Assembly: GCA_037951105.1 (NCBI GenBank)
Contig: JBAMJV010003276.1
Location: 1-64,000, forward strand
DNA from: Echinarachnius parma
Lineage: Eukaryota > Echinodermata > Echinoidea > Clypeasteroida > Echinarachniidae
Reading direction: 5' to 3'
DNA: 64,000 nucleotides
Shown: positions 1-63,920 of the stretch, one piece after another
Numbering within the stretch: the stretch's first letter is position 1
Layout: every line of letters starts with the position of its first letter
Program-made: the position numbers and the translations under genes
The notes under the pieces: generated by a model
What the model was told of the DNA's origin: nothing
Seen by the model: only the letters and a program-made list of their open reading frames with translations
Database searches by the model: none

Positions 1-149
1 CTTGCGACACACATTTTGCCAGTCGAAAGACAGTCGGATGCTAGTTGGGGCCAAATCAACACGATGAAACGGACCAGACCGACCGGGCCCACCTCTAGCC
101 TGATTGAAACCAGTCGGATCGGGTCAAGTCGGCTCTGTCTGCGCCGGGC
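1..149. mobile_element. Right end of a second THAP-element-like transposon (partial)
   Basis: Bases about 95-149 match the right terminus of the 39870-45809 element almost base for base: a CAGTCGGATCGGGTC stretch followed by GTCGGCTCTGTCTGCGCCGGGC. The element runs off the left edge of the window, so only its last part is visible and no coding sequence can be read. The remaining bases 1-95 are GC-rich and do not obviously match the right TIR of the other copy, so the two copies may differ internally. Confidence 0.7.
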
Positions 150-1265
150 TTAAGTTAGAATTACTCGTAAGTCAGATCACGTGTTCTAGATGCGCGAATC
201 TGATTGGTTGAAACGCGCCAAGTTGCTGACTTGCAATCAAGCGTAACTTACAATCGATTGTATCTCTTTTTGCAACGGGCCTAGGGCTGTTTAATTTTGC
301 TATGTAATCTTCATTAGAGCCCTGCAAAATATTCCCGGGACCAAAATTAGGGGTTAATAAACCGGGATTGGGGGGGGGGGGGGGGGGGGGGTTCACAAAG
401 ATCCAAAGTTTCATGGAAAGCCGTTTAATAAAACATGTAAAGGTTTTTTTTTTAAGGTATACATTGCTGATTTAAATCATTAATATTTACTGTTATCTTG
501 GAGATTATGAAAAGAGTAATATGCTCGCTTAGGTGCTTTAGAATATTGTATTCCAAGGCTAAAAATTACTTTTCATAATAATTAAGTCCAACTAAGAGTG
601 AAGTTCAGCTTAGGATCTTTGTGAAACATCGGTCCTGTTGCAGAAAGAGATACAATCGATTATAAAGTACCAAATGATTGGATTTGTTTGTTTTCGGTTT
701 TTTTTTTCAAATAAAATGTATTCAAAGTTCTCAAAGCAAGTTAACAAGGGGGGGGGGGGGGGGAAACAAAAGTTAACAAAGATATTATAAGTACACAATA
801 CAAAATAATATTATGTGATGTCAACATAGTAATATACATGATACATACCAAGTTTCATAACACGTTTCAAATCAATTGTTCCTCTCTCCATTCATCAAGA
901 AATAAAACAAATTTATCTCTTTTTATTTACCCCAAGAATATTATGTAATATTTCAAACTAAAAGCAACGCAATTTTGTTGATAACGTATATCTAAAAGGA
1001 ACAGCGTACACTTCCTTCCAATCCATCATCGGTTCCAATAAAATTTAGTTCCATTTTGTTAGTGAAATTTTAACTTGAATTATTTTATCAATGCATAGCT
1101 TATGAAAAACTGGGAGCATTTTCAATAATGTGTTTCCCTTGTAAAGGAACGGCGGATATAACAGAATACAACTCCATAAATAACAACGAATGGTGGTATT
1201 TTTGTAGAAATTCATCAGAACTAAAAAATTACCCAACTGTTTTGTAATAAATAAAACATTTTTAA
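150..1265. other. AT-rich noncoding DNA with G-runs
   Basis: No gene is seen. The stretch holds two pure G-runs (about 371-391 and 749-763) and an inverted repeat: TACAATCGATTGTATCTCTTTTTGC around 250-277 recurs reversed around 634-661 (GCAGAAAGAGATACAATCGAT). This suggests a degraded fold-back element of about 0.4-0.6 kb. Short open frames here read through the G-runs and are not convincing. Confidence 0.6.
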
Positions 1266-16402: not shown

Positions 16403-16870
16403 CTGACTTGTTGGTATGTAAACCTTCACTCGACTAGTGAAAGGTTCGTCAAAAAATCATGACCAAATGGTCATGAAATAATAATGAAGATGAGTGACAT
16501 TAAATGAGTGACTTTATTTATATCTTTTCTTTGTGATAACAAACAGTATGTTATTGACACAAAATTACATTTTACACCCATTTTCTTTAGACGCACCACC
16601 CATAATATGTTATATGTTACATTAAGTATGTATTTGTAAAGTTCTTTTAACAAGATATTAATTAAATTTTGTTTTTTATAGCAATATGTTAACAAAATGA
16701 AGAAAAGTGTGAGATTTGTTCGCAGTCATACGTTTAAAGCGCATAATCGATTCAAACACTACACGATTTATAAACGCGGTACTGAATCGATTATAAAAGC
16801 TCTCCACCCCAACCTCCGTGAGATTTTTTATATATTAAAAAAAAAGAGTTCATTTTTTGGCAATTAGTTT
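16403..16870 (-). repeat. MT repeat copy 3, M part
   Basis: This is an inverted copy of about 39440-39860 and 48080-48510. Shared blocks are GTGAAGGTTTACATACCAAC, ACTTTTCTTCATTTTGTTAA and CGATTCAGTACCGCGTTTAT. It is noncoding. Confidence 0.7.
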
Positions 16871-21920: not shown

Positions 21921-22844
21921 CTTCAGCTTTACCGGCTTTGCCTTTGTCGGTGGGATAGAACTAGAAGTGAGCCACGCCGGTCATGACGGCAGGCGAAGCT
22001 GTTGGGCGTCCCTCTCTCATCCTCGGCTTCTCTGGCCGGCTCGACTCGGCCTTAAAACGATTGTTTGCTATCTACCTTAGATAAGCCAAGAACCGGAATT
22101 ATGTTTAATCACAATAGAGAGATCAGAGATCAGATGTCCTATTTCAATGATTCATTACATAGACAAATTGATTTTTTATTGTGGTCCTGAGACCTGACTC
22201 CTGGCGTCCTGCCTAATTAATTTAATTACATTTTAATTTTACTTTTTTTTAGTTAAATTTTTTTTTTAAGATTCCAAGAGTGAGACTAAGCCTGGTCCTG
22301 GCTAATTTTTTTCTTCCAACCACTGCATTGGCATTCAAATTGTGCTACAGTACAAGCTATGCCAGCTCTTATTACTGGCTTACTGCCTTACTTAGTTTAC
22401 TTAACTCTGATCATCTTATGTGTCTTGAGTCACCAAACCAGGACCAGGTCCAGGGCCAGCAAGCGCCCTGCGAAACACATGCCAGCCCCAGACTGGAAAG
22501 CATTAATTCACATTTTTATCTGGTGCTCTTTTTCAACCCCTGACACTGTTTGCACGTTTATGATGTATCGTTTGTAGCCCATTCTAAATCATTGATTGAT
22601 GACAATACAAAATGATGGACCAAGAAATGTCTAATTACTTTGGTATTGGATTCAATCTTTTCTCACAGGTAGACAACAACGTGTTTTGTATAAAGGTACT
22701 ACATCGTCATGGTTTCGTGTACTTTCAGGAATATCACAGGGTAGTGTTTTAGGGCCATGTTTATTTCATTTATTTATTGATGATCTTTTGTATCAAACTC
22801 AGTCGCCTTCTGTTTTGTTTGCTGACGATACATTGTTATATACA

Positions 22845-23805
22845 CTGTGAAAAAAGTAGTAAATTTACGTTGGGTATTTTTTTGTTGGGTAATAAATACG
22901 TTGGTTACTGTTTTGTTGGGCAATATTTGACCAATACTTAGGCAAAGTTGTACTCTGCCGCTGCCTATATACAGATGTCCAATTATTAGGCAATTAATTG
23001 CTCTGCTGAGTGGTAAATTACATACGATCGTGCCATTGTGAAAAAAGGAGTAAATTTACCTTGGTAATTTTTTGGTTGGGTAATATATACGTTGGTTACT
23101 GTTTTGTTGGGCATTATTTGACCGATACTTAAGCACAATTTTACTCTGCCGCTGCCCAAATACAGATGTCCAATTGTTGGGCAAGTTATTGCCCTGCTGA
23201 GTGGTAAACTGTATACGTGCGTGCCACTGTGAAAAAAGAGTAAATTTACGTTGGTAATTTTTTTGTTGGGTAATATATACATTGGTATTTGTTTTGTTGG
23301 GCATTATTTGACCAATACTTGAGCAAATTTTTACTCTGCCGTTGCCCAAATACAGATGTCCAATTGTTGGGCAAGTAATTGCCCTGCTGAGTGGTAAACT
23401 GTATATGTGCGTGCCACTGTGGAAAAAAAGAGTAAATTTACGTTGGTAATTTTTTTGTTGGGTAATATATACGTTGGTATTTGTTTTGTTGGGCTTACTT
23501 GACCAATACTTGAGCAAATTTTTACTCTGCCGTTGCCCAAATACTGATGTCTAATTGTTGGGCAAGTAATTGCCCTGCTGAGTGGTAAACTGTATATGTG
23601 CGTGCCACTGTGGAAAAAAGAGTAAATTTACGTTGGTAATTTTTTTGTTGGGTAATATATACGTTGGTATTTGTTTTGTTGGGCATTATTTGACCAATAC
23701 TTGAGCAAATTTTTACTCTGCCGTTGCCCAAATACCGATGTCCAATTGTTGGGCAAGTAATTGCCCTACTGAATGGTAATCTGTATACGTGCGTGCCACT
23801 GTGAT
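22845..23805. repeat. Tandem array, about 190-bp unit, five copies
   Basis: Units start near 22845, 23035, 23227, 23418 and 23609. Each opens with a copy of the element's own terminus (CACTGTGGAAAAAAGAGTAA) and contains TTTTTTGTTGGGTAATATAT, TTACTCTGCCG.TGCCCAAAT and TTGCCCTGCTGAGTGGTAA. Similar open frames on the minus strand simply follow the repeat period. Confidence 0.85.
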
Positions 23806-24399: not shown

Positions 24400-25105
24400 A
24401 AAATATAACCCAACAGTTGGGCACAGTAATGTCCCAACAACGTTGGTTAAAATGTTGCCCAGTAGTTGTTGAGGTTGACTATGCTTCCAACGTCGGGTAA
24501 AATATTGGGTAAATATACGTAATTACCCAACAGTTGTGCACATTAATGTCCCAACAACGTTGGTTTAAATATTGCCCAGTAGTTGTTGAGGTTGACTATG
24601 CTTCCAACGTTGGGTAAAATGTTGGGTAAATATACGTAATTACCCAACAGTTTGGCACATTAATGTCCCAACAACGTTGGTTAAAATATTGCCCAGTAGT
24701 TGTTGAGGTTGACTATGCTTCCAACGTTGGGTAAAATATTGGGTAAATATACGTAATTACCCAACAGTTGGGCACATTAATGTCCCAACAACGTTGGTTA
24801 AAATATTGCCCAGTAGTTGTTGAGGTTGACTATGCTTCCAACGTTGGGTAAAATATTGGGTAAATATACGTACTTACCCAACAGTTTGGCACATTAATGT
24901 GCCCAACAACGTTGGTTTAAATATTGCCCAGTAGTTGTTGAGGTTGACTATGCTTCCAACGTTGGGTAAAATATTGAGTAAATATACGTACTTACCCAAC
25001 AGTTGGGCACATTAATGTGCCCAACAACGTTGGTTAAAATATTGCCCAGTAGTTGTTGAGGTTGACTATACTTCCAACGTTGGGTAAAATATTGGGTAAA
25101 TATTT
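24400..25105. repeat. Tandem array, about 117-bp unit, six copies
   Basis: Repeated landmarks are CCCAACAACGTTGGTTAAAA, TTGCCCAGTAGTTGTTGAGG and ACTATGCTTCCAACGTTGGG. Copies occur near 24435, 24553, 24669, 24786, 24905 and 25022. The palindrome CCAACGTTGG occurs in each unit. A diverged partial unit precedes the array (24330-24430). Confidence 0.85.
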
Positions 25106-26558
25106 ACCCTTTTTTTTCACAGTGTAGGCCAATATGTACTCCCCAAGATCAAGAAATTATCTAAGCTGATTTGGATAGTATACACAATTGGTGTTTAATA
25201 AATAAAATGCGTATAAATATAAGTAAGTCTAAAGTAATGAGAATTACATGGTCAAAGAATCGAGGCATTCCAAATTATAGTCTTGATTCTAAGCAGCTTG
25301 ATGTTGTTAGTGAGTATAAGTATCTTGGGGTGATGTTGAATAATAGATTAACTTGGCACACACACGTTGATTATATTCTGAAGAAGGCAAACCGTATGTT
25401 AGGTTTCATAATGTCAGTGTGTAAATCACTTTCCCCAGTTTCCTTTTTTTTGGTTTATAAATCTCTTGTTATTCCAATATTGGAATATGGTCAGCCTGTG
25501 TGGTATTTGCATACAATATTTCTCTCCGATAAAATTGAAGAGATTCAACGCCGTGCCTCTCGTACTGCACTTCGGCAACGTAGACAAGAAATGTCATACG
25601 AGGATAGAATGAATATTCTTAAATGGTATCCATTATAAATGAGAAGAAGATGTTGTTTATATACTTATGTTGTTAAAGCATTGTTCGGGTTGATTAATTG
25701 TGATGTGGTTCACGATGCTGTTAAGGTAAATGGTAGATACGTGGACATGGGCAAGTGTATTCACCTCCGGGCACGAACCCAGCGGTTGCATTGCTCAGCC
25801 ATTCATACTTTCCCGCGCCTATGGGATGAGCTTCCGTTGGATTTGCGATCGGGGGTGGCCATGGACCCCTTGTACACGTGGCTTGCTAGTTTGCGACACC
25901 ACCTCCAAGATGGTTGATAATTGTGTTTATGCATACATTTTATCATTGTAATTAGTGTTAGAAGTTCTTGATTTTTTAGTGTTTATTACGATGTTAAAAC
26001 GTTTGTATACAATGTTTATCCTGTTGGTTTGTTACCATTTTCACTTTGTAAGTAGCCACTGGAATTGGGACGGAAGGCTTTTGGCCACAGTTATTTAGTT
26101 AACTTTTTCCAAGCCCTGGCATTCCAATGGTTACAATGTTTTATTTTGTACACTTTTCATGTGTATTTGATTGCCGAATAAAATAATAATAATAATAATA
26201 ATAATTATAAATTACTTTTCAAGGATTTTTACTCAATAACTGGATCTTGACTGAAAAGTAAATGTAGTTGAGTAGTTGACCTAAACATCAGTTTAAACCC
26301 TAACACTACAGTCAATAAATTAATTTTGCATTTTCCGCCCATGATTTTGTAACTGAGACTTTACAGGAGCTCATTTGTCATTTCACTGTTTTCATGGGCT
26401 AATTACTAATTTGCACTCTCTGAACAGATGTATTTTTTACTATTTTGGTCCAGAATTTTCACTACACATCAAGCTGGTGTTCTCAACAATATATTTGAAC
26501 ATGTTAGTGAAATTAAGTGAATATTTTTTCTTATGAATGTTATATTTTCTTTCATTAG

Positions 26559-34243: not shown

Positions 34244-35270
34244 CATCGCACCGGCATACACGGCAGTCACGTTAGCCCATTCCGCCCCCCCCCCCCCCTC
34301 CATCGCATCGGCATACACGCCAGTCACGTTAGCCCATTCCGCCCCCCCCCCCCCCCCCCCCATCGCACCGGCATACACGGCAGTCACGTTAGCCCATTCC
34401 GCCCCCCCCCCCCTCCATCGCACCGGCATACACGCCAGTCACGTTAGCCCATTCCGCCCCCCCCCCCTCCATCGCGTCCGGCATACACGCCAGTCACGTT
34501 AGCCCATTCCGCCCCCCCCCCCCCTCCATCGCACCGGCATACACGCCAGTCACGTTAGCCCATTCCGCCCCCCCCCCCCCCCCCCCACCCTCCATCGCAC
34601 CGGCATACACGCCAGTCACGTTAGCCCATTCCGCCCCCCCCCCTCCATCGCACCGGCATACACGCCAGTCACGTTAGCCCATTCCGCCCCCCCCCCCTCC
34701 ATCGCACCGGCATACACGGCAGTCACGTTAGCCCATTCCACCCCCCCCTCCCCCCATCGCACCGGCATACACGGCAGTCACGTTAGCCCATTCCACCCCC
34801 CCTCCCCCCATCGCACCGGCATACACGGCAGTCACGTTAGCCCATTCCGCCCCCCCCCCCTCCATCGCACCGGCATACACGCCAGTCACGTTAGCCCATT
34901 CCGCCCCCCTCCCCCCCCCCCCCCCATCGCACCGGCATACACGCCAGTCACGTTAGCCCGTTCCGCCCCCCCCCCCCCCCCATCGCACCGGCATACACGC
35001 CAGTCACGTTAGCCCGTTCCGCCCCCCCCCCCCCCCCATCGCACCGGCATACACGGCAGTCACGTTAGCCCGTTCCGCCCCCCCCCCCCCCTTCACCATC
35101 GCACCGGCATACACGGCAGTCACGTTAGCCCATTCCGCCCCCCCCCCCCCCCCCCCATCGCACCGGCATACACGGCAGTCACGTTAGCCCATTCCGCCCC
35201 CCCCCCCCCCCTCCATCGCACCGGCATACACGGCAGTCACGTTAGCCCATTCCGCCCCCCCCCCCCCCTC
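34244..35270. repeat. C-run minisatellite, about 18 copies
   Basis: Each unit is CATCGCACCGGCATACACG, then [G/C]CAGTCACGTTAGCCC, then [A/G]TTCCGC or ATTCCAC, then a C-run of about 8-20. Unit length varies between about 51 and 64 bp, mainly through the C-run. Some units carry T or A interruptions within the run. Proline-rich and glycine-rich open frames through it depend on C-run length and are not genes. The complementary strand presents a G-run of 8 or more in every unit. Confidence 0.95.
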
Positions 35271-37660: not shown

Positions 37661-38645
37661 TAAGATAATGAGGCAGAATTGAAGAATTTATAATTAGTTG
37701 ACCGACCTGTACGTGTCATTGTCCTACGTACTGAGCTAAAACACCAATGTTTTAAATCGAAATAACTAGGATAAATCGAATGATCTATAGAAAGAAAAGT
37801 ATTTATTAAACGACTAACATTCCAAACTTCATATTATTATTTATTTCGTATCAACCTGTCACATATAACAGGGTGAATTTTAAAGCCCAAGACCAGTTTC
37901 GGGAAAGTAGCCGAATACATCTATATTGATCAGTATTGTTGAATATGTATTGAAATAGGGCTTGTGTGGTGAAATCCGACCCTAAGCATCGTTAAATACA
38001 AAAATATCGGAAGAAATCAATATCCGCCTGTGAAATTCATAAATCCACCGCAAATTCAGATCCGTAAGTGCCGATAGCGCAGCGGGAGATATCGACAACG
38101 ACGAGAGAAGCCCGTATAGCGAAGAGCCTCGTGAACTGCACGTGGTACTAATACACGTAGCGTATGGGCGATTCCTCGTTGGCGATATATGTCCCATTGG
38201 GATCAATATATAATTTTGGATAATCCTATATTAGTATAATTATATTCTTTTACATTATTGGTAATAAGAGCTTCCATTTCATTTTTTTTAGAGGGGGGCG
38301 TTTCCAAAACTGGTCTTTACCTTTAAGGTTGAAAAGAAGATACGAAAAGCAAAAATTTTCAACGCAATTATATCGTAAAATAACTTATTATAAATGCTTG
38401 CGTCTCGGTAAATGTTTACATTATTGAAAAGGGTAAAGACTCGTTTTTGATGAGAAATGATTCGCATATTCATTACTATTTTAGAATAGTCAGGAGCTAG
38501 CAAAATATCACACGGGATCAAAAGATAACTGTGATTTCCGAAATTCCAGTTCTGTGATTGGCTCATTCAACTACTGACCACTGTTGCTGAGGTTGCTGAG
38601 GGACCATATCAACAGTCATTCGCACCTGACATTGCCCGCTTTGTC
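37661..38645. other. Noncoding DNA
   Basis: No gene is recognised. TTTTAAAGCCCAAGACCAGTTTCGGGAAAG (37880-37909 region) has a possible inverted partner around 38299-38335 (CCAAAACTGGTCTTTACCTT), hinting at an element of about 0.45 kb. Confidence 0.4.
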
Positions 38646-38713
38646 ACAGACTTGGTTGAATAGCCCACAAGATGCGCCTTATGCTTATACAGTAGTTTAT
38701 GTATCAATATTAT

Positions 38714-39114
38714 AGGTTTTCCCGCTCAATTTCGCGATTGTGTCAATCGAATTGATAATAGGAGCAAACGGATTCGCGCGATTTGCGATCGCCGTACCAA
38801 AGCAGCATTCGAATTCGTAAATAGTCGTTCAAAATCACGCAGGAGCAAGCGAATTTGCACAAAGTGCATACTTTTTCATCAATGGTCATTCGAATTCGCG
38901 AAAGGGCAGTTGATAGTTGGCTGCACATTCGCGAATTCGAATGCCCATAAATGAACTTCAGTGTCTATTCACGAAAGCGTGTGCGTATGCATGAATTCGC
39001 ATGCCCTTATTCGGATTCGGAATACCGATACCAACGATTATGCGACAACGCGCGAATTCGAATGACCATAAATGAATTCGATTGAAAAAAATGCAAAATT
39101 GAGCGGGAAAACCT
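38714..39114. mobile_element. Family P MITE
   Basis: The TIRs AGGTTTTCCCGCTCAATTT and AAAATTGAGCGGGAAAACCT match 36961-37350. The interior contains many TTCGAATTCG and CGCGAATTCG palindromes and repeated CCATAAATGAA. Sequences on both sides of this copy are related (TTGGTTGAATAGCCCACAA at 38652 and 39130). Confidence 0.8.
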
Positions 39115-39118
39115 ATAT

Positions 39119-39869
39119 TTGTCACGGAATTGGTTGAATAGCCCACAATATGCACATGATGCCCCTTATGCTTATACAGTATTTTATGTATCAATACTAT
39201 TTTCTCGTACTTCGATAGTTCCTTTTTCTTGTATATCTGTATACTGTACATGTATTATGTCAATGTTCATTTTTGTTTATACATGTATCAGCTTCTTAGC
39301 TGTTTTAATCAGATTTTGTTCAATACAACTATTTCAAGTCAATTCCATACAACACAGTTTCATTATTGTTGGGTCCCACAATAATTCAATAATTTTGAAC
39401 CAGCCATTACCAAAAAATGTAACACTCTTTTAAAAAACCTCAAGGAGGTGTGGGGTGGAGAGCTTTTATAATCGATTCAGTACCGCGTTTATAAATCGTG
39501 TAGTGTTTGAATCGATTACACGCTTTAAACGTATGACTGCGAACAAATCTCACACTTTTCTTCATTTTGTTAACATATTGCTATAAACAAATATGTTTTA
39601 ATTAATATCTTGTCAAAATAACTTTACAAATACATATTTAAGTAACATATAACATGTTATGGAAGATGCATGTAAATGAAAATCTGTGTAAAATGTCATT
39701 TTGTGTTAATAACTTACTGTATGTTATCACAAAGAAAATATATATTCAACTTCACTCGGTTCGATGTCACTCATCAGTTCATCATTTTCATGACCAATTA
39801 TCAGGTCATGATTTTTTGACAAACCGTTCACTAATCGAGTGAAGGTTTACATACCAACCCCTAACCCTA
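39119..39869 (+). repeat. MT repeat copy 1, M part
   Basis: It matches 47830-48540 along TTATGCTTATACAGTA, ACATGTATTATGTCAATGTT, TATCAGCTTC, GATTCAGTACCGCGTTTATA and GTTTACATACCAACCCCTAA. The copy is interrupted at 39870 by the THAP element and resumes at 45810. Confidence 0.8.
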
Positions 39870-39997
39870 AAGCCCGGCGCAGACAGAGCCGACTCGCCTC
39901 CGATCCGACTGGTTTTCAGTCAGGCTAGAGCATAGAGTTATGTATAGGTACTAGAGTGCGGACTCGGCCGAATCGCTGTGATAACGTGGAGCAGCGG

Positions 39998-40010
39998 CCG
40001 CCATTGTTTT
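39998..40010 (+). promoter_or_regulatory. YY1-type motif upstream of the THAP start
   Basis: CCGCCATTGTTTT lies about 60 bp before the ATG and resembles the YY1 core (CCGCCATNTT) common near starts of TATA-less animal genes. A similar GGCGG/CCGCC-ATTA block occurs inverted in the right TIR (about 45550-45558), so the TIR itself may supply the promoter. This is inferred from motif alone. Confidence 0.3.
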
Positions 40011-40068
40011 GTCGGGCAAAGTCGCATCAACCGTGGACAGCCAGCAAGTACCGTAGCAGACTTTCAAA

Positions 40069-41912
40069 ATGCCGATTTCGTGTATCGGTTGCAAGAACAG
40101 ATACGTGAAGGGAAGTGGCATAATCTTTCACAAGTAAGTTCCTTTACTAAGTAAGTTTATTGAATTTAATATTAACAATAATATAGCTGTCAGTGTCACA
40201 GTGTCAGTAGATATAGATATTTGACTTTGTGGCGCTAGTTCACAAGTGTACCCATACTTCGGCGCCGTCACCCTACGCGGCTAGCTACCCGTGACTCGCG
40301 CTTGATGAGTACCCTAAGGTAAGTAACTCGCGCTTGTGAAAACAGAATACCCTAACTTAACGTACCAAAAATCACCTAAATCGTCAACAATTGTTCAAAT
40401 AATGATCATGAATTTTGCCGACGCGTAATTTGACACAAAACGGCAAGGGTATTTTCAAACCGGCATTTGAAGATGAATTCTAAATATTCTGCGGTGGATT
40501 TTACAAGAATCTAACTTAAAGTACAGAAGTTTCCGCATTATCATTGACATTTGTGATGAGAAAACTTTGTTGTTCCATTGGTTTTGAGTGTAATATTCAT
40601 GAGCTTGAAAAAAAGGTGTCCATTATATTATATTTGTTTTGGTCTTTCTCTTTTTTATTATTTTAGGCTACCCCTTGGGCAATTCAGCATTGCTAAAACA
40701 GTGCTCGTGAAGATCAGCCGGGATGACTTCACACCAGGGAAATACCATTTTCTCTGCAGTGAACATTTCCTGAAAGAGGATTATATGAGAGGTGAGCTTC
40801 TCATTTTTGTTTTTAAGCATTTTATTATTGAACTACATATGATATTACCATATCATCATTCAGTCTAGATGTACATGTAGAAATATAATCTACAGATGTA
40901 GTACTAGTAGTACTTAGTAGCGGCATTATCATGATTTAAAGCTAGCCATGGGGGGGGGGGGGGCAGTAATTTCTGTGACACGGTTGAGCATACTCTCTAA
41001 TTCTTACTGGAGAGAATTATTATGATGCGGTCTGAGTTTGTACCGTGCAATGAACAAAGGACATGAATCCAAAATGACCTTGGCATTGCAGCAAATCTTG
41101 CACAGCTCGGTGAGTTAAGAGTGGTGACTTGAAATGATAGGCTGCAGGTTTAATTCCACATCAGTATCTGTTTTTTTTCTTCCTATAGTGTAAGTGAGGT
41201 AAGGATTGAAGTTGAAATACAAAAAAAAGGGTGTTAAAAAGAGTAGCAGGAAACGTTGGCACTTAGTTCTTGTAGTCCCGGTGACTGGTTTCACAATATG
41301 GTCTATCACTGGCGCCGGAACCATCCGAGCAAATAGTTTTTTTTACCTCATTTGCATATTTCTTTTTAGACCTTTTTGAAATTTATAACTAGGACTAAAT
41401 AATATCCTTTAGTCTCTATAGATGATAACAGGCGCAGGTTTTTTTGTGAGCATTTTTCAACACCCAGAGGACACGCATAATATTTTGTCATTGTTTATAT
41501 TATGCAAATGAGTTAAAATTTGATTATGGTTCCATTTGTAATTTATGTATGACAACTGAACTTTCTATGCTAATGCCTAAGTACATGAGTCTAACATTCA
41601 TTTACCAGGAAGAAAAACTAAATTTCCAAATGGTATGAATTATTCATGTTGTATTTTTGCTTTAATCTCATTGTAGGGATACACCCAAGGGACGAACAGG
41701 ATGTTACCTACCACTATCTTCTTCCACAAGCGGTACCCACCATCTTTCCAGAACACCCATCTCATAAGCAGTCCCACACCAGAAAGCGACCTCCTCCAAA
41801 ACACCGTACATCTGAAAGTAGTCCTCAGCCTCCCCCAAAAAAGCTGTATGATGTCACAAAGGAACACAGCTATTCCTCTCTACTGTTTCACTTGGTGAAA
41901 AGCTTGAGATGA
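40069..41912 (+). CDS. THAP-domain protein, three exons (40069-40133, 40667-40791, 41677-41912)
   Basis: The spliced product is 141 residues, with consensus splice sites (AA|GTAAGT, TTTTAG|G, AGAG|GTGAGC, TTGTAG|G) and consistent phases. Residues 1-87 form a THAP zinc-dependent DNA-binding domain: ligands C5, C8, C52 and H55 in the LCSEHF motif, conserved P24, and the terminal AVPTIF box at 82-87. The conserved Trp before the second ligand pair is not present (AKTVLVKISRDDF). A basic, proline-rich linker (about 94-120) follows. Residues 126-129 read EHSY, matching the [D/E]HxY HCF-1-binding motif that precedes a coiled coil in several THAP proteins. The frame then ends early: a neighbouring frame continues with SLGEKLEMTSQQLQNAKQQL, coiled-coil-like, so a 2-nt slip in the TCCTCTCT run (about 41874-41881) probably broke the gene. 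In P elements the THAP domain begins the transposase; no GTP-binding or RNase H-like part was found. Confidence 0.85.
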
Positions 41913-43675
41913 CAAGTCAGCAGCTACAGAATGCTAAACAGCAACTCAGAGTCAACATCTCGGGTCAAAGTTTTGCATGCTCATTGTTTTATGGCTCTAA
42001 TTCCAAATGTATTAACCAATTGTCCTGAAACCTGTTTCAAATGATCCAGGTAGAATGTCCTCTTTGATTTGAGGCCCTTGCTCTGTGTTTCATTCAGGAA
42101 TTTTGATTTTATAATCTTTTAAACTTGGTTAAAGTTTTGGTTAAAGTTTCAGAAAAGTGGCAATATGTACATGTGTGTACATATATACAGTACATGTATG
42201 CGAGAATGGCATACAGTAGTATATGTGCAGTTATAAATTCAGGCAGGGGTGTCCAATTATGGTCTAGACTGGTAAGAATATTGATAATATACCAAGGTTC
42301 ATGTCTGTAATTTCTGTGTAGATGTAGGTCAAAGGGTCAAGGGTCAATTGTACATTTCTATGTAGATTAGTGTGCAGTTAGTTGGTACCTGCATGTTTGG
42401 ATTTTTGAATTTTTTGTTCTTTTTAATATCAAAGAATTGATTTGTAATTGTTGCTGTCTTTTTTCTTTCTAAAAACTGAAAAGCCAGCTACACTTTGTAT
42501 GTTGCAGGAAAAAGCCTGCTCTGAGATACATGTACATCCAACTAGAGGTTTTCTTTTCCCACTGTATGCATACAACTCTTGTGGAAGTTATCCCAAACCT
42601 GGTGATTTTAGTGTGCCCACAATTTGAGAGATGCACAAAAAGTGAGAGCAACTAGTAATATAAATGGCTCAATATAGTAATAGATTCAATACTTTCTTTT
42701 ATTGGTATACTGATTTTATCTTCTTGCTGTTTCAATCAAACATCACACAAAATTCAATAAATATCTGTTTTCCTTGTCATCATGTCTACTGGAATCAGGG
42801 GCGGCGCCAGGGTGTTTGCTTAAATGCCTTGCAACTTCTGGGGGGGGGGGGGGGGTGTGACCTCCGACACATTTTTATTGACGTCTACACATTTCCCCCC
42901 AACTTTTAATAATGGGGTGGGGGGGCAATTGTTCCAGAATGAAGAGAAAAATAAACTGCCAAAATTAGCCCTCAATTGTCACAGTTAAATGTTGCGACCG
43001 CTCATAGGAGTTATTTTAGCCAAAATAATCTGAGAATCCTAAATTGGCAACATATGAACAGATTGAGGATCACCATTTTAGTGCAAATTGGCAACTTTTT
43101 AGATTGGAAAGAATAGCCAAATGTTCATATTTTATTTTGTCTATACAAAACTTTTTTTAATTTTATAAAAATAACGAAATTTCTGTATCCGATGTGATGA
43201 TACAATAGAGATTTATTCCATCATAAGCAATACATTAAATGTGGTCTTCGTTCTCAATGGGACTGTTCTTGTATCCCAGTAGTTTGTCTATGATAGGGTA
43301 AAATAGAAATTTAACATATTATACATGTATACGAGGTATAAAACATCTGCTCTTTGATTTAAAACCACCATTATGATGGACAAAACTATGAGAATTAACC
43401 AGAACTATTTATTTGAATTTGTTTGAATTGAATTTATCTATGGAACCATTGGGTTATTTCTCTAAGATCAATACATTTACATTTAGATCACATGTTCATT
43501 GATTGACTGTTTATTTAAATGAGTATAAATAATTGTGTATCGTGATTCGTGAATTGGCCTATAGCAATATTGAAATGTGAGAAATGCTGTGTCTGAGAAT
43601 CCTTTAATATTTTATGAGGAGATTAATGTGTGAACATACATGTACAATTATTTATTGAATGTAATGATTGAAGTA
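41913..43675. other. 3' region of the THAP element
   Basis: The out-of-frame coiled-coil continuation runs to a stop near 42028. Beyond it no further exon was recognised. A G-run (about 42840-42855) and ordinary AT-rich DNA fill the rest. Expected transposase domains of P-like elements are not visible. Confidence 0.5.
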
Positions 43676-43850
43676 CAGTGGAACCTTGTTATAACAAGGT
43701 CCTTGGACCAAGAAAATTGACTTGTTATATCAAGTTTCTCATTCAGGCTAAAAAAAAACAAATATAAAGAGTTGAGACCAGCAAATTACCTTGTTATATC
43801 AAGCGGGTTTTGTTGCTTATATCCGCCGTCTTTATAACGAGAGTCCACTG
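43676..43850. mobile_element. Family Q MITE inside the THAP element
   Basis: CAGTGGAACCTTGTTATAAC pairs with the complement of TTTATAACGAGAGTCCACTG. TA lies at both edges (43674-43675, 43851-43852). Confidence 0.8.
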
Positions 43851-43940
43851 TACAGTGTATTTGATTTTGTATATGTTCATTTTTTTTTTACTTTTAGAAA
43901 TGCGTCCATGAACCTGATTTTGTGAAAGGGCAAAAGACTA

Positions 43941-44383
43941 CATTTGTGACCTTACACCACAAAACGACCAATAAGTCGGGAAAACTGATTTTGCTGCTTT
44001 TCATAAAACATTAAAATAGGAGTCATTACCTTTAAAATGGTATATCATTCGTCATATTTGGACTAAGCAAACCCTCTCAAAATGAACACCAAAGATTTGG
44101 AATATGTCTGAAGCAGTTTTAAAATAAGGTAGAAATGGGCCATTTAAAAGATCAGTTTCCATTAAAGCGCTGTAATAAGATTACATTTATTGGATGAAAA
44201 AATAATATTTAAACATGATTTCCAACGCTCAAAATGTTACAGAAGCTAGATTAAGATCTGCTTATTCAGGAAATACCAAAATCCTAAATCTCATATTTTA
44301 AACCAAATTTTATTATTTTAGCTAATAACAGAGAAACTATCTGAGCGACATAACGGTCGTTTTGTGGTGAAAGGTCACATTTG
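43941..44383. mobile_element. 443-bp TIR element inside the THAP element
   Basis: CATTTGTGACCTTACACCAC continues into AAAACGACC; its inverse is GGTCGTTTTGTGGTGAAAGG followed by TCACATTTG. The interior is noncoding. The superfamily is not assigned because target duplication is unclear. Confidence 0.75.
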
Positions 44384-44568
44384 ATTTAGGAAATTTTCTG
44401 CAATGAACAAAAAGTGTGCTGATATGATTTGATAGATTGATGGATGAGTGGCATGCTTGGAGGATGGATACATGAATGGTTGGTTGAATGGATTGTTGAA
44501 TGTGTGGGAAAATACAAAGCTTATTTTGAATTTTAAATTGAAACTTTCTGTCAAGAGAGAATGGTGCC

Positions 44569-44570
<2 letters not shown>

Positions 44571-44600
<30 letters not shown>
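44571..44600. repeat. (CA)n microsatellite
   Basis: About 15 uninterrupted CA units. A C-run follows at about 44719-44736. Confidence 0.95.
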
Positions 44601-44603
<3 letters not shown>

Positions 44604-44770
44604 AATCCATAACAATACAATAGTGAAGGGCATGTTCCATCGCGTAATAAATCCAGGCTTGACACTATGGCTTCAAGTGAACAAAATAAAGAGAATACTT
44701 ATAGTATAGAACAATTACCCCCCCCCCCCCCCCCCAACAACAAAAAAATAAAAAATCTATATATACTATA

Positions 44771-45271
44771 CGCACAAAAAGTTCCGCAATCGAGGTTTGC
44801 GCATTAATAACTTTTCTATTAGGTTATTACCATTGATAAATTTGGTATCATTAAAAAGAGTGAATTCTCCCCTTTACATTGATATAACATTTGCTATGAG
44901 TATTTCATCATGGAGTGTGCATTACATCCGAATGTAGGGCAAAGTAAAAAATGAAATGTTGCAAAATGCACTGATTTTGTCAACAGTGTGCCTTCCTTTT
45001 GTTTGAAGATTAAAACGTGGCTTACCTCACCCCCATTCAAGCCAACGAAGGCACTCTGTTGAGAAAATCAGTGCATTTTGCAACATTTCACTTTTGACTT
45101 TGCCCTACATTTGGATGCAATGCACATTCCATGATAAAATATTCTTAGCAAATGTTATATCACTGTAAAGAGGAGGATTCACGCTTTCCAATGATACCAG
45201 ATTTATGAATGGTAATAGCGTAATAAAAAAGTTATTAATGTGCAAACCTCGATTGCGGAACTTTTTGTGCG
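44771..45271. mobile_element. 0.5-kb fold-back MITE inside the THAP element
   Basis: CGCACAAAAAGTTCCGCAAT continues CGAGGTTTGC; the inverse occurs at the right end. The two halves pair over about 230 bp each, e.g. TTGCAAAATGCACTGATTTT with AAAATCAGTGCATTTTGCAA, around a short centre near 45010-45030. Confidence 0.85.
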
Positions 45272-45302
45272 AGGTATATATGCACATTAAATATGTATAT
45301 AA

Positions 45303-45376
45303 AACAACGAGAATAAATGAAATACTCCGTGGAAAATTTGTTTTTTCCACGGAGTATTTCATTTATTCTTGTTGTT
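45303..45376. repeat. Near-perfect hairpin, about 34-bp arms
   Basis: AACAACGAGAATAAATGAAA followed by TACTCCGTGGAAAA pairs with TTTTTCCACGGAGTA and TTTCATTTATTCTTGTTGTT around a loop of about 5 nt. The stem has one mismatch. Size fits a tiny MITE or a small hairpin RNA; expression is unknown. Confidence 0.8.
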
Positions 45377-45817
45377 TCTATACATTTCGACTCTGAGCAG
45401 TACATGTATATATATATGTTTATAATTTTTCATTGTAATTTTCAGGTTGTGTCTTGCGAAATCAAGGCCAAACACCGACTTGTATCATCAGTCAGTGCGA
45501 AGGGCATGTGCAGCGCGTGCGGAGACTCTCAGCAATTGCCCGACATAATAATGGCGGACTATGCTCCATGCGCTCACAGAGCCTTTGCGCGCGAGCCATT
45601 GCGAGTCCGCACTCTAGTACCTATATATAACTCTATGGGCTAGAGTCAGTTTCGCTCAGTCGGAGCCGATATAACATGTTGAATCGGCCTGGAATGACCT
45701 CCGACTGGAGTTTAACTGAAAAAATCGAAGTCCTGAGGCAGCACATACTGAGTTAATCAGGCTGAAAACCAGTTGGATCGGGTCGAGTCGGCTCTGTCTG
45801 CGCCGGGCATAACCCTA

Positions 45818-46570
45818 CGGGAGTTCGTTCTTACAAATAGACCGCTTATGTAATGTATGCAAATAATATGCGTATGACGTCAGACACCCCGTTGCCAAGC
45901 TTAACAATAGTAACTAGGTCCGGCAAGCTCCGGCAAACTTAGCTTGCCGGACCTAGGAGTCTTACGTCATACGCATATTATGTGCATACATTACACAAGC
46001 GGTCTATTGCGCATGCGCAAATTTCTGAGACGAAAATTCTTTGTACAAAAACATAGATATTGCCCGTTGCAATTATTGTCACATTTGAAACGTGTTTTCA
46101 CGGGAAATTTGGCTCGAAGTCAGTAATGTTTTGTTTTTTTTCAGAATTAATCAAAATGGACATCTCATATGGGTAAGACTGATTTTTTTATAGATTTATT
46201 TGTTCTATTTATTTTCGGATATTAACAAAAAATGCCAACGTTCGTATCGGGGCTGTTATTGAAACCGAAACGTCCCCATACGTAGATTTTTGTGTCCTGT
46301 TTTCTTTTAAGTCTGGAAAAATGGGCAAAGATATGATTTTTATTATAAAAAATGCTTATTTAGCCTGCTTTAAGTTTGAACATTAAAGTGATTATATTAC
46401 TCATTGCGGATATGGTATCGGAAAAGATATCGGAAAAGATATTGGAAAAGTTATTCCTTGTTGACCACATTGCGAGACACGAATATCACTAGCGATATCT
46501 TTTCCGATTTTATGTAAAGTGAATGGTTATATTTATAAGGTAATTTTTCTTGTCAGGTCTTTAAAATGTA
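45818..46570 (+). repeat. MT repeat copy 1, T part, with R hairpin insertion
   Basis: It resumes the host repeat after the THAP element (GGGAGTTCGTTCTTACAAAT). About 45842-46007 is a fold-back: GACCGCTTATGTAATGTATG pairs with CATACATTACACAAGCGGTC around a GGTCCGGCAAGCT hairpin. The fold-back is absent from copy 3 (CTTACAAATTGCGCATGCGC across the site). T-part landmarks are CACGGGAAATTTGGCTCGAA and GGGCAAAGATATGATTTTTA. A short ATCGGAAAAGAT repeat lies at 46408-46450. Confidence 0.7.
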
Positions 46571-47577: not shown

Positions 47578-47829
47578 GGCCATGAAAAATAAATTGTTGG
47601 ATTGGCGTATCCCGCCCGACCCTAAAAAACCGCCGACCCTAAAGGTATTTAAAGATTTTTAAATATTTGTTTAATAAAAAAAAAAAATCTTCAAAATTGC
47701 TAATATGTGTTATGTGTGTGTTATGTGTTTTCGTGTATTTGTGCGAATCCTGGCCCCAAAAAATCCCTACCTCCCTACCCTAATTTTTAGTTGCCGTTAC
47801 TCTAATCCAGCAATTTTGTTTGTTTGGCC
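47578..47829. mobile_element. PIF/Harbinger-like MITE with empty site
   Basis: TIRs begin GGCC (GGCCATGAAAAATAAATTGTT; inverse GGCCAAACAAACAAAATTGC) and TTA occurs at both edges (47575-47577, 47830-47832). MT copy 1 has the uninterrupted site GCCCCTTATGCTTATAC (39161), giving a 3-bp TTA duplication. TWA duplication with G-rich ends is typical of PIF/Harbinger. No transposase is present. Confidence 0.8.
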
Positions 47830-48590
47830 TTATGCTTATACAGTACTTTATGTATCAATAATATTTTATCGTACTTATAATATTATGTCTGTGCTGTACA
47901 TGTATTATGTCAATGTTAATTTTTGTTTATACGTGTATCAGCTTCAATGGTGTTTTAATCAGATTTTTTTCAATACAACCATTTCAAGTCAATTCCATTC
48001 ACCACATTTTCATTTTGTTGCGTCCCAGAATAATTCAATAATTTTGAACCAGCCATTACCAAAAAATGAACACTTTTTTTAAATCTCACGGAGGTGGGAG
48101 GTGGGGAGCTTTTATAATCGATTCAGTACCGCGTTTATAAATCGTGTAGTGTTTGAATCGATTACACGCTTCAAACGTATGACTGCGAACAAATCTCACA
48201 CTTTTCTTCATTTTGTTATAACATATTGCTATAAAACATATATTTTTAAATTAATTTCTTGTAAAAAGAATTTTACAAATACATATTTAATGTAACATAT
48301 AACATATTATGGGTGATGCGTGTAAAAATAAATGGGTGTAAAATGTAATTTTGTGTTAATAACATACTGTTTGTTATCACAAATAAAATATATGAGCAAC
48401 GTCACACAGTTATCGTCACTCATTCATTATCAAGTCATGACCAACTAATTGGACATGTCCAGATTTTTTAACGAACCGTTCACACTAATCGGGTGAAGGT
48501 TTACATTCCAACCCCTAACCCTAACCCTCCCTAAATCTAAGGGAGTTCGTTCTTACAAATAGACCGCTTCTGTAAGGTATGCAAATAATA
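47830..48590 (+). repeat. MT repeat copy 2
   Basis: This copy is continuous across the place where copies 1 and 3 are interrupted: CCAACCCCTAACCCTAACCC then AAGGGAGTTCGTTCTTACAA. It ends near GTATGCAAATAATATG. Confidence 0.8.
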
Positions 48591-63476: not shown

Positions 63477-63599
63477 TTAATGTTAACATCAGGATAGATC
63501 GTAATTCTCATTTTTACGCCACCGGAAGTGTTCGAAATGAAACAGCGTGGGTAGGACAAACATCTTTTTTTTTGTGTGTGTGTGTAACTACTTTGAAAT

Positions 63600-63920
63600 C
63601 ATGACCATTATTTGAGCAATTGTCGAAGATTTAGTTGCTTTTGGGTACGTTACATTTGTGTTTCGTATGGTACTCTTCACGAGCGCGTCACGGCCAGCTA
63701 GCGGCGTAGCGTGCCGACACCGGAGTGCGGGTACAATAGTGAACTCGCGCCAAAAATCTACCAAATCCCCGTCATCACTGTCGCTGTCTGATGAATCATT
63801 CCTGTCCTCTTCTTCATCTTCTTCGGAAAAATCCACTGCGAAACTCAGTTCGAGAGTATTTACTCCATTTTCCTCGAAATAAAACTGTCCAGCGCGATCG
63901 TACGTTATCAAAAAGCAATA
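63600..63920 (-). CDS. Possible exon with acidic serine-rich segment (unidentified)
   Basis: A minus-strand open frame lacking an ATG encodes GQFYFEENGVNTLELSFAVD, then SEEDEEEDRNDSSDSDSDDG, then LVDFWREFTIVPALRCRH. The acidic run is the kind seen in nuclear proteins, and the flanks are not low-complexity. No domain is recognised and splice sites are uncertain. An opposite-strand serine-rich frame is the usual shadow of such sequence. Confidence 0.25.

Follow-up and report, generated by a model that had tools for sequence, protein, structure and literature searches.

We analysed a window of 64,000 nt from the echinoid Echinarachnius parma (assembly GCA_037951105.1, contig JBAMJV010003276.1, positions 1 to 64,000 of the forward strand), in which a gene with a THAP domain lies inside a segment bounded by inverted repeats at 39870–45809. 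We find that this segment consists of two nested transposons: a THAP-bearing P element inside an unrelated element of ~222 bp that resembles a miniature inverted-repeat transposable element (MITE). We are highly confident that the P element in the window is an internal-deletion derivative of the P superfamily inserted in this MITE-like element, and that its THAP exons are the front end of the transposase. The THAP gene is ordinary in kind, although many similar copies and one uninterrupted transposase gene are found in the same genome. An earlier note, made from the sequence of the window alone, had described a single 5.94-kb segment with terminal inverted repeats (TIRs) and TAACCCTA direct repeats. 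These repeats are present; however, they are part of two elements and not of one. The conspicuous outer repeats had concealed the real ends and the real duplication of the P element, and this misreading of nested transposons is corrected here.

The outer arms of the segment are an exact inverted repeat of 25/25 positions (39872–39896 and 45784–45808), and further inverted arms lie within. The inner arms start with CATAGAG (39931 and 45637) and form the termini of a separate transposon, which has its own 8-bp duplication, GGCTAGAG. Its terminal repeats are 36 bp long, with 35/36 positions alike between the arms. Drosophila P-element ends also start with CA; as a P feature, the CA start is supported here by one printed example. 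The THAP transposon had previously been delimited by the outer ends (39872/45808), which belong to a different element; the true ends are the CATAG ends at 39931 and 45637. The proposed 8-bp target duplication holds insofar as the 8-bp GGCTAGAG abuts the P ends, whereas TAACCCTA flanks the other transposon and was dropped as the P-element duplication after the CATAG ends with GGCTAGAG had been found. The window copy furthermore has subterminal inverted arms of 44 nt, a feature of the P superfamily, and each of these arms contains one of the two occurrences of GTCGGGCAA in the 64 kb. The motif CGGGCAA presumably resembles the human THAP1 site; our literature search gave no paper in support of this likeness. 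Insertions at 43939–44382 and about 44754–45288 enlarge the window copy by roughly 1 kb. The features of the P element are as follows.

39931–45637 (5707 bp), plus strand: P-superfamily transposon copy, internally deleted and decayed, with 36-bp ends and an abutting 8-bp duplication; 17 fetched copies have both such ends
39931–39966, plus strand: left TIR, starting with CATAGAGTTATATATAGG, 1 mismatch to the family end
45602–45637, minus strand: right TIR, 0 mismatches to the family end
39923–39930, plus strand: left copy of the target-site duplication GGCTAGAG, abutting the left end
45638–45645, plus strand: right copy of the target-site duplication GGCTAGAG, abutting the right end
39976–40019, plus strand: left subterminal inverted repeat, ending with GTCGGGCAA; candidate transposase-binding region
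45536–45579, minus strand: right subterminal inverted repeat
43939–44382, no strand assigned: nested repeat inside the P element, of which a 94% copy is found at a different site in the family copy L047
44754–45288, no strand assigned: nested MITE with 245-nt inverted arms; 44766–45276 is flanked by, but not part of, the matched blocks in most family copies

As the earlier note had proposed, we searched the genome (1.2 Gb, 14790 contigs) for recurring ends. With the left 166 bp as the query, this gave 1045 first-look candidates, 40 scored matches and 30 returned loci. The outer 50 bp are present in only three of these loci, namely the window itself (L001) and L002 and L003, which share the left flank of the window at 97–98% identity. 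The remaining 27 loci contain the inner part without the outer 50 bp; by eye, they start at or beside CATAGAGTTATATATAGG, and their flanks mostly differ (shared flanks were found in L007/L008 and in L004/L010). Because of these 27/30 loci, we assign the CATAG end to the THAP transposon and the GCCCGG end to something else. Of 20 regions that were fetched from the best matches, both CATAG ends are found within 10 kb in 17, one end in L037 and in L038, and none in L049 at the threshold used (L042 has an additional inner end, and the nearer pair was used). The outer 30 bp are identical at both ends in 17/17 copies, whose lengths range from 4558 to 8177 bp, and a perfect abutting 8-bp duplication is found in 13 of them. 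The length of 36 bp comes from three copies, namely L032, L041 and the window copy, that were compared over their full arms. These 17 other copies are different deletion derivatives, in which exons 1–2 are broken where found and the last exon contains a stop. Their main shared blocks are roughly 91–99% identical to the longest copy, L046, whereas the window copy is 75–88% identical to L046 in most blocks and 97% identical over the last 224 bp. The window copy is therefore older or more distant.

The uninterrupted transposase gene is located on contig C7678 (locus L037), where an identical 36-nt left end (0 mismatches), preceded by the 8 nt GTTCGTAA, is found together with all four exons. Spliced at GT-AG, these exons give an uninterrupted frame of 883 aa, and among nine junction offsets GT-AG alone gave a stop-free reading. 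An open frame of 764 aa, which comprises most of exon 3, matches the Pfam families for the GTP-binding insertion (PF21788, 4.7e-45), the N-terminal and C-terminal parts of RNase H (PF21787, 3.6e-43; PF21789, 7.4e-18) and the helix-turn-helix (HTH) domain (PF12017, 2.1e-22), and the exon-2 frame alone matches Pfam THAP (2.9e-05). The suggestion of a P element is thus borne out by a relative with the same left end, which carries both the GTPase and the RNase H-like domains that had been recommended as a check. The gene spans about 8.4 kb with a second intron of 3.8 kb; exons 1–2 and the start of exon 3 encode the THAP domain, exon 3 encodes the coiled coil, HTH, RNase H and the GTP-binding insertion, and exon 4 encodes the C terminus. 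The last exon alone matches no Pfam family and has two unrelated solved-structure matches (E 0.76 and 1.1); we assign it to the transposase because of the spliced frame.

Among solved structures, only the P transposase 6p5a matches the C7678 frame at E≤0.01 (1.5e-23). The alignment pairs LMLDAM with LAFDEM, VCDGS with VSDLG and QDHLEMFF with QDIVEHFF, which we take, placing them by eye, to be the sites D230, D303 and E531 in the numbering of PMC7776569. In a protein search with the C7678 frame, a threshold of 1e-5 was reached by 178 proteins; the 120 that are listed bear P-transposase domain numbers, as judged by eye. Among these 120 best of the 178 matches, the closest is the unnamed protein P0001 (79% over 90%), and the closest named protein among the matches listed is the DNA transposase THAP9 of Holothuria leucospilota (P0010, 68% identity over 65%), an annotated gene that was compared as protein alone.

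In the window, the spliced THAP gene that had been reported ~200 bp within the left end was recovered (Pfam THAP, 9.9e-09), and its exons align with the front of the C7678 gene.

40069–40133, plus strand: transposase exon 1, start of the THAP domain, without 6 bp that are present in L037 and L041
40667–40791, plus strand: transposase exon 2, remaining THAP core, frameshifted across the tryptophan stretch by small length changes
41677–41951, plus strand: 5′ part of transposase exon 3 (AVPTIF and coiled-coil start), with the frame broken near 41880
41952–41954, plus strand: internal-deletion junction with TCA microhomology (3 nt), at which ~4.35 kb of C7678 sequence (remaining exon 3 and last exon) is absent

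The alignment of the window copy to C7678 covers the left end, exons 1–2 and exon 3 up to QQLRV, and then jumps ~4.35 kb to beyond the last exon. Further parts of C7678 are absent from the window copy, for instance within intron 2, and may be losses here or insertions there. No P-transposase family was detected by Pfam in 30 of the 49 stop-to-stop open reading frames (ORFs) of at least 45 aa in the element, nor in the three forward frames of 41850–43680; HTH, RNase H and the GTP-binding insertion are absent from the window copy because of the internal deletion. No catalytic protein can come from the window copy. Repression by a short THAP protein might be imagined but is unlikely, as the THAP tryptophan is lost. 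The best solved-structure match of the THAP piece is human-type THAP1 (4.2e-12). With the same piece, NCBIfam gave a single match far under its cut-off, one homologue search gave no candidate and another gave 53 candidates with none at E≤0.01. Weak Pfam matches to MotY_N, Polo_box_4, CBM9_2 and DUF2688 were all under the curated cut-offs and were taken as chance. In intron 1, the stretch 40226–40414 (~189 bp) is 69% identical to 63596–63756 near the window end, in opposite orientation.

The outer ends, GCCCGGCGCAGAC... at 39872/45808, are those of a MITE-like element that was split by the THAP transposon. When the P element and one GGCTAGAG are removed, an element of ~222 bp results, whose ends of ~48 bp are 94% alike.

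39872–39930, plus strand: left portion of the outer MITE-like element, which the P element interrupts
45638–45808, plus strand: right part of the outer MITE-like element; the first 8 nt are the P-element duplication
39862–39869, plus strand: TAACCCTA left of the outer element, a possible duplication, 1 nt out of register
45810–45817, plus strand: TAACCCTA right of the outer element
104–151, minus strand: end of a second outer-element copy, cut by the window start, with no P element in the remaining 150 bp

The first 15 nt of the outer tip occur three times in the window (up to 3 mismatches allowed; all three are exact) compared to 0.16 expected, with the third copy at 135–149 on the minus strand. 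Furthermore, TCCGACT occurs five times in the window, three times in the outer element and twice in the first 118 bases, where homology is shown for 93–154 only. The outer TIR had 0 matches in viral_contigs and genome_contigs and the 5′-leader string had 0 matches in viral_contigs; both collections may exclude the genome of the window and those close to it. The 8-mer TAACCCTA repeats exactly, at a distance of 2 nt from GCCC on the left side and of 1 nt from GGGC on the right side, and this spacing puts it out of register with the outer ends. An alternative in register is TAACCCTAA/TAACCCTAC, with 8/9 matching, and the 4-mers adjoining three outer tips are TAAA, ATAA and TTAA. The chance values, which were estimated from random window positions for patterns that were all chosen after the data had been seen, are 6.7e-4 for the exact 8-mer (offsets 0–3), 8.1e-4 for the 9-mer in register (at most 1 mismatch) and 5.5e-5 for the TTAA pattern at three junctions. 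For the outer element, the TAACCCTA, 9-bp and TTAA readings of the duplication are all candidates.

We propose that a P-superfamily transposon with 36-bp ends starting with CA and 8-bp duplications inserted, presumably by cut-and-paste, at GGCTAGAG within the outer MITE-like element. The window copy retained its first two exons and the beginning of exon 3, and its catalytic body was lost by an internal deletion joined at TCA that may have arisen by break repair; small length changes and later insertions represent decay afterwards. By analogy with known P elements (PMC7776569), the THAP domain would bind near the ends and the RNase H domain would cut and join. Deleted copies would thus move, if at all, in trans, by the transposase of an intact relative that recognises the common ends.

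The family unites a full domain set with common ends and clear derivatives by internal deletion, in a genome of 1.2 Gb, and is a candidate for recent P-element activity outside flies and fish. More tentatively, the 883-aa transposase gene on C7678 or a sister might have recently mobilised the near-identical deleted copies of ~4.6 kb that have the same 36-bp ends and thus be a working P element; we consider this rather unlikely. If true, it would be a working P element beyond insects and fish, and a mobilisation system in a marine invertebrate. We recognised no published description of this CATAG-ended P family in the literature searched, which comprised listings, starts of abstracts and passages.

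Several observations weigh against our interpretation of the window copy as a member of this P family. The right end of the C7678 copy reads N, and in no single copy were both ends seen together with an uninterrupted transposase. Four of the 17 copies (L031, L039, L040 and L050) have no perfect duplication. The uniformity of the ends is partly due to selection, as the 17 copies were drawn from the best-scoring matches. In addition, these copies have no match to the exon-3 region of the window; they are tied to the window copy via the ends, exons 1–2, the 3′ part and C7678, and not throughout. L031 and L050 share the same left flank; their right flanks differ and no duplication is found, which suggests rearrangement or recombination between copies.

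The Drosophila P element (6p5a) has the same protein architecture, with THAP, coiled coil, HTH and an RNase H domain split by a GTP-binding insertion, as well as 8-bp duplications and internally deleted copies (PMC7776569). In contrast, its ends are 31 bp long and differ in sequence from the 36-bp ends found here, and the long C7678 gene with its large second intron is unlike it. The zebrafish Pdre2/THAP9 element has ends that also start with CATA (CATACCTGTCAAC), subterminal inverted repeats, 8-bp duplications and internally deleted relatives (PMC10983969, PMC7776569), whereas its ends are 13 bp long and have another sequence.

Could a TIR transposon with its boundaries at 39870/45809 have captured a host THAP-factor gene? 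The absence of P-transposase families from 30 of the 49 element ORFs and from three forward frames of 41850–43680, the survival of THAP and the coiled-coil start alone in the window, and the match of the THAP piece to human-type THAP1 would fit such a capture. However, the family transposase gene on C7678 begins with the same exons, and the outer ends are absent from 27/30 returned loci. The carried gene is not distinct from the family's own transposase. We thus abandon the earlier ideas of a transposon carrying a host THAP gene or of an intermediate between the two, and regard capture as very improbable unless C7678 is misassembled. AVPTIF, which had been read as a sign of a host THAP factor, and the coiled coil do not discriminate between the possibilities because the C7678 transposase has AVPTFF and the same coiled-coil start.

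A single Galileo-like element of the P superfamily, with very long repeats and the outer GCCCGG tips as its true ends, would be consistent with both outer and inner arms being inverted and with the long repeats that occur in this superfamily. Galileo has a THAP transposase and 7–8-bp duplications (PMC4168063); its repeats measure 0.5–1.2 kb (PMC3688188) compared to 36 bp here. Such an element is hardly credible, since the outer tips are missing from 27/30 loci, the CATAG ends are directly flanked by perfect 8-bp duplications in 13/17 copies and in the window copy, and the second outer tip at 104–151 has no adjacent CATAG in the bases left. The least probable explanation is an element of the Kolobok type, with a THAP domain and TTAA duplication. 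Kolobok transposases likewise carry THAP and AVPTIF (PMC6004289), and the 4-mers at the outer tips recall TTAA. Yet the ends of the THAP element start with CA and its duplications are 8 bp long, in place of 5′-RR and TTAA, its C7678 relative has P-transposase domains, and TTAA concerns at most the outer element, for which no gene is known.

The region 38363–41882, which comprises the left flank, the outer element and the 5′ part of the P element, recurs at 97–98% in two other contigs (L002, L003 and L049, with L002 and L049 on one contig). L049 diverges from the window within exon 3 after 41882, suggesting that these are duplicated loci or alleles whose interiors differ. To the left of the outer element, about 39160–39870 is a dispersed repeat, seen via L002 and L003, with ~86% identical stretches at 47828–48524 and 16410–16864. 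Directly right of the outer element, 45836–46008 contains an inverted repeat whose 53-nt arms are separated by 67 nt, and is probably another small repeat element.

Elsewhere in the window, Rfam and tRNA scans found nothing. An open frame of 157 aa at 25165–25638 looks by eye like a fragment of a reverse transcriptase of the type without long terminal repeats, and it has no such Pfam match. Long tandem arrays are found at 34244–35268 (54–55-bp units), 22843–23804 (191-bp units) and 24408–25103 (117-bp units).

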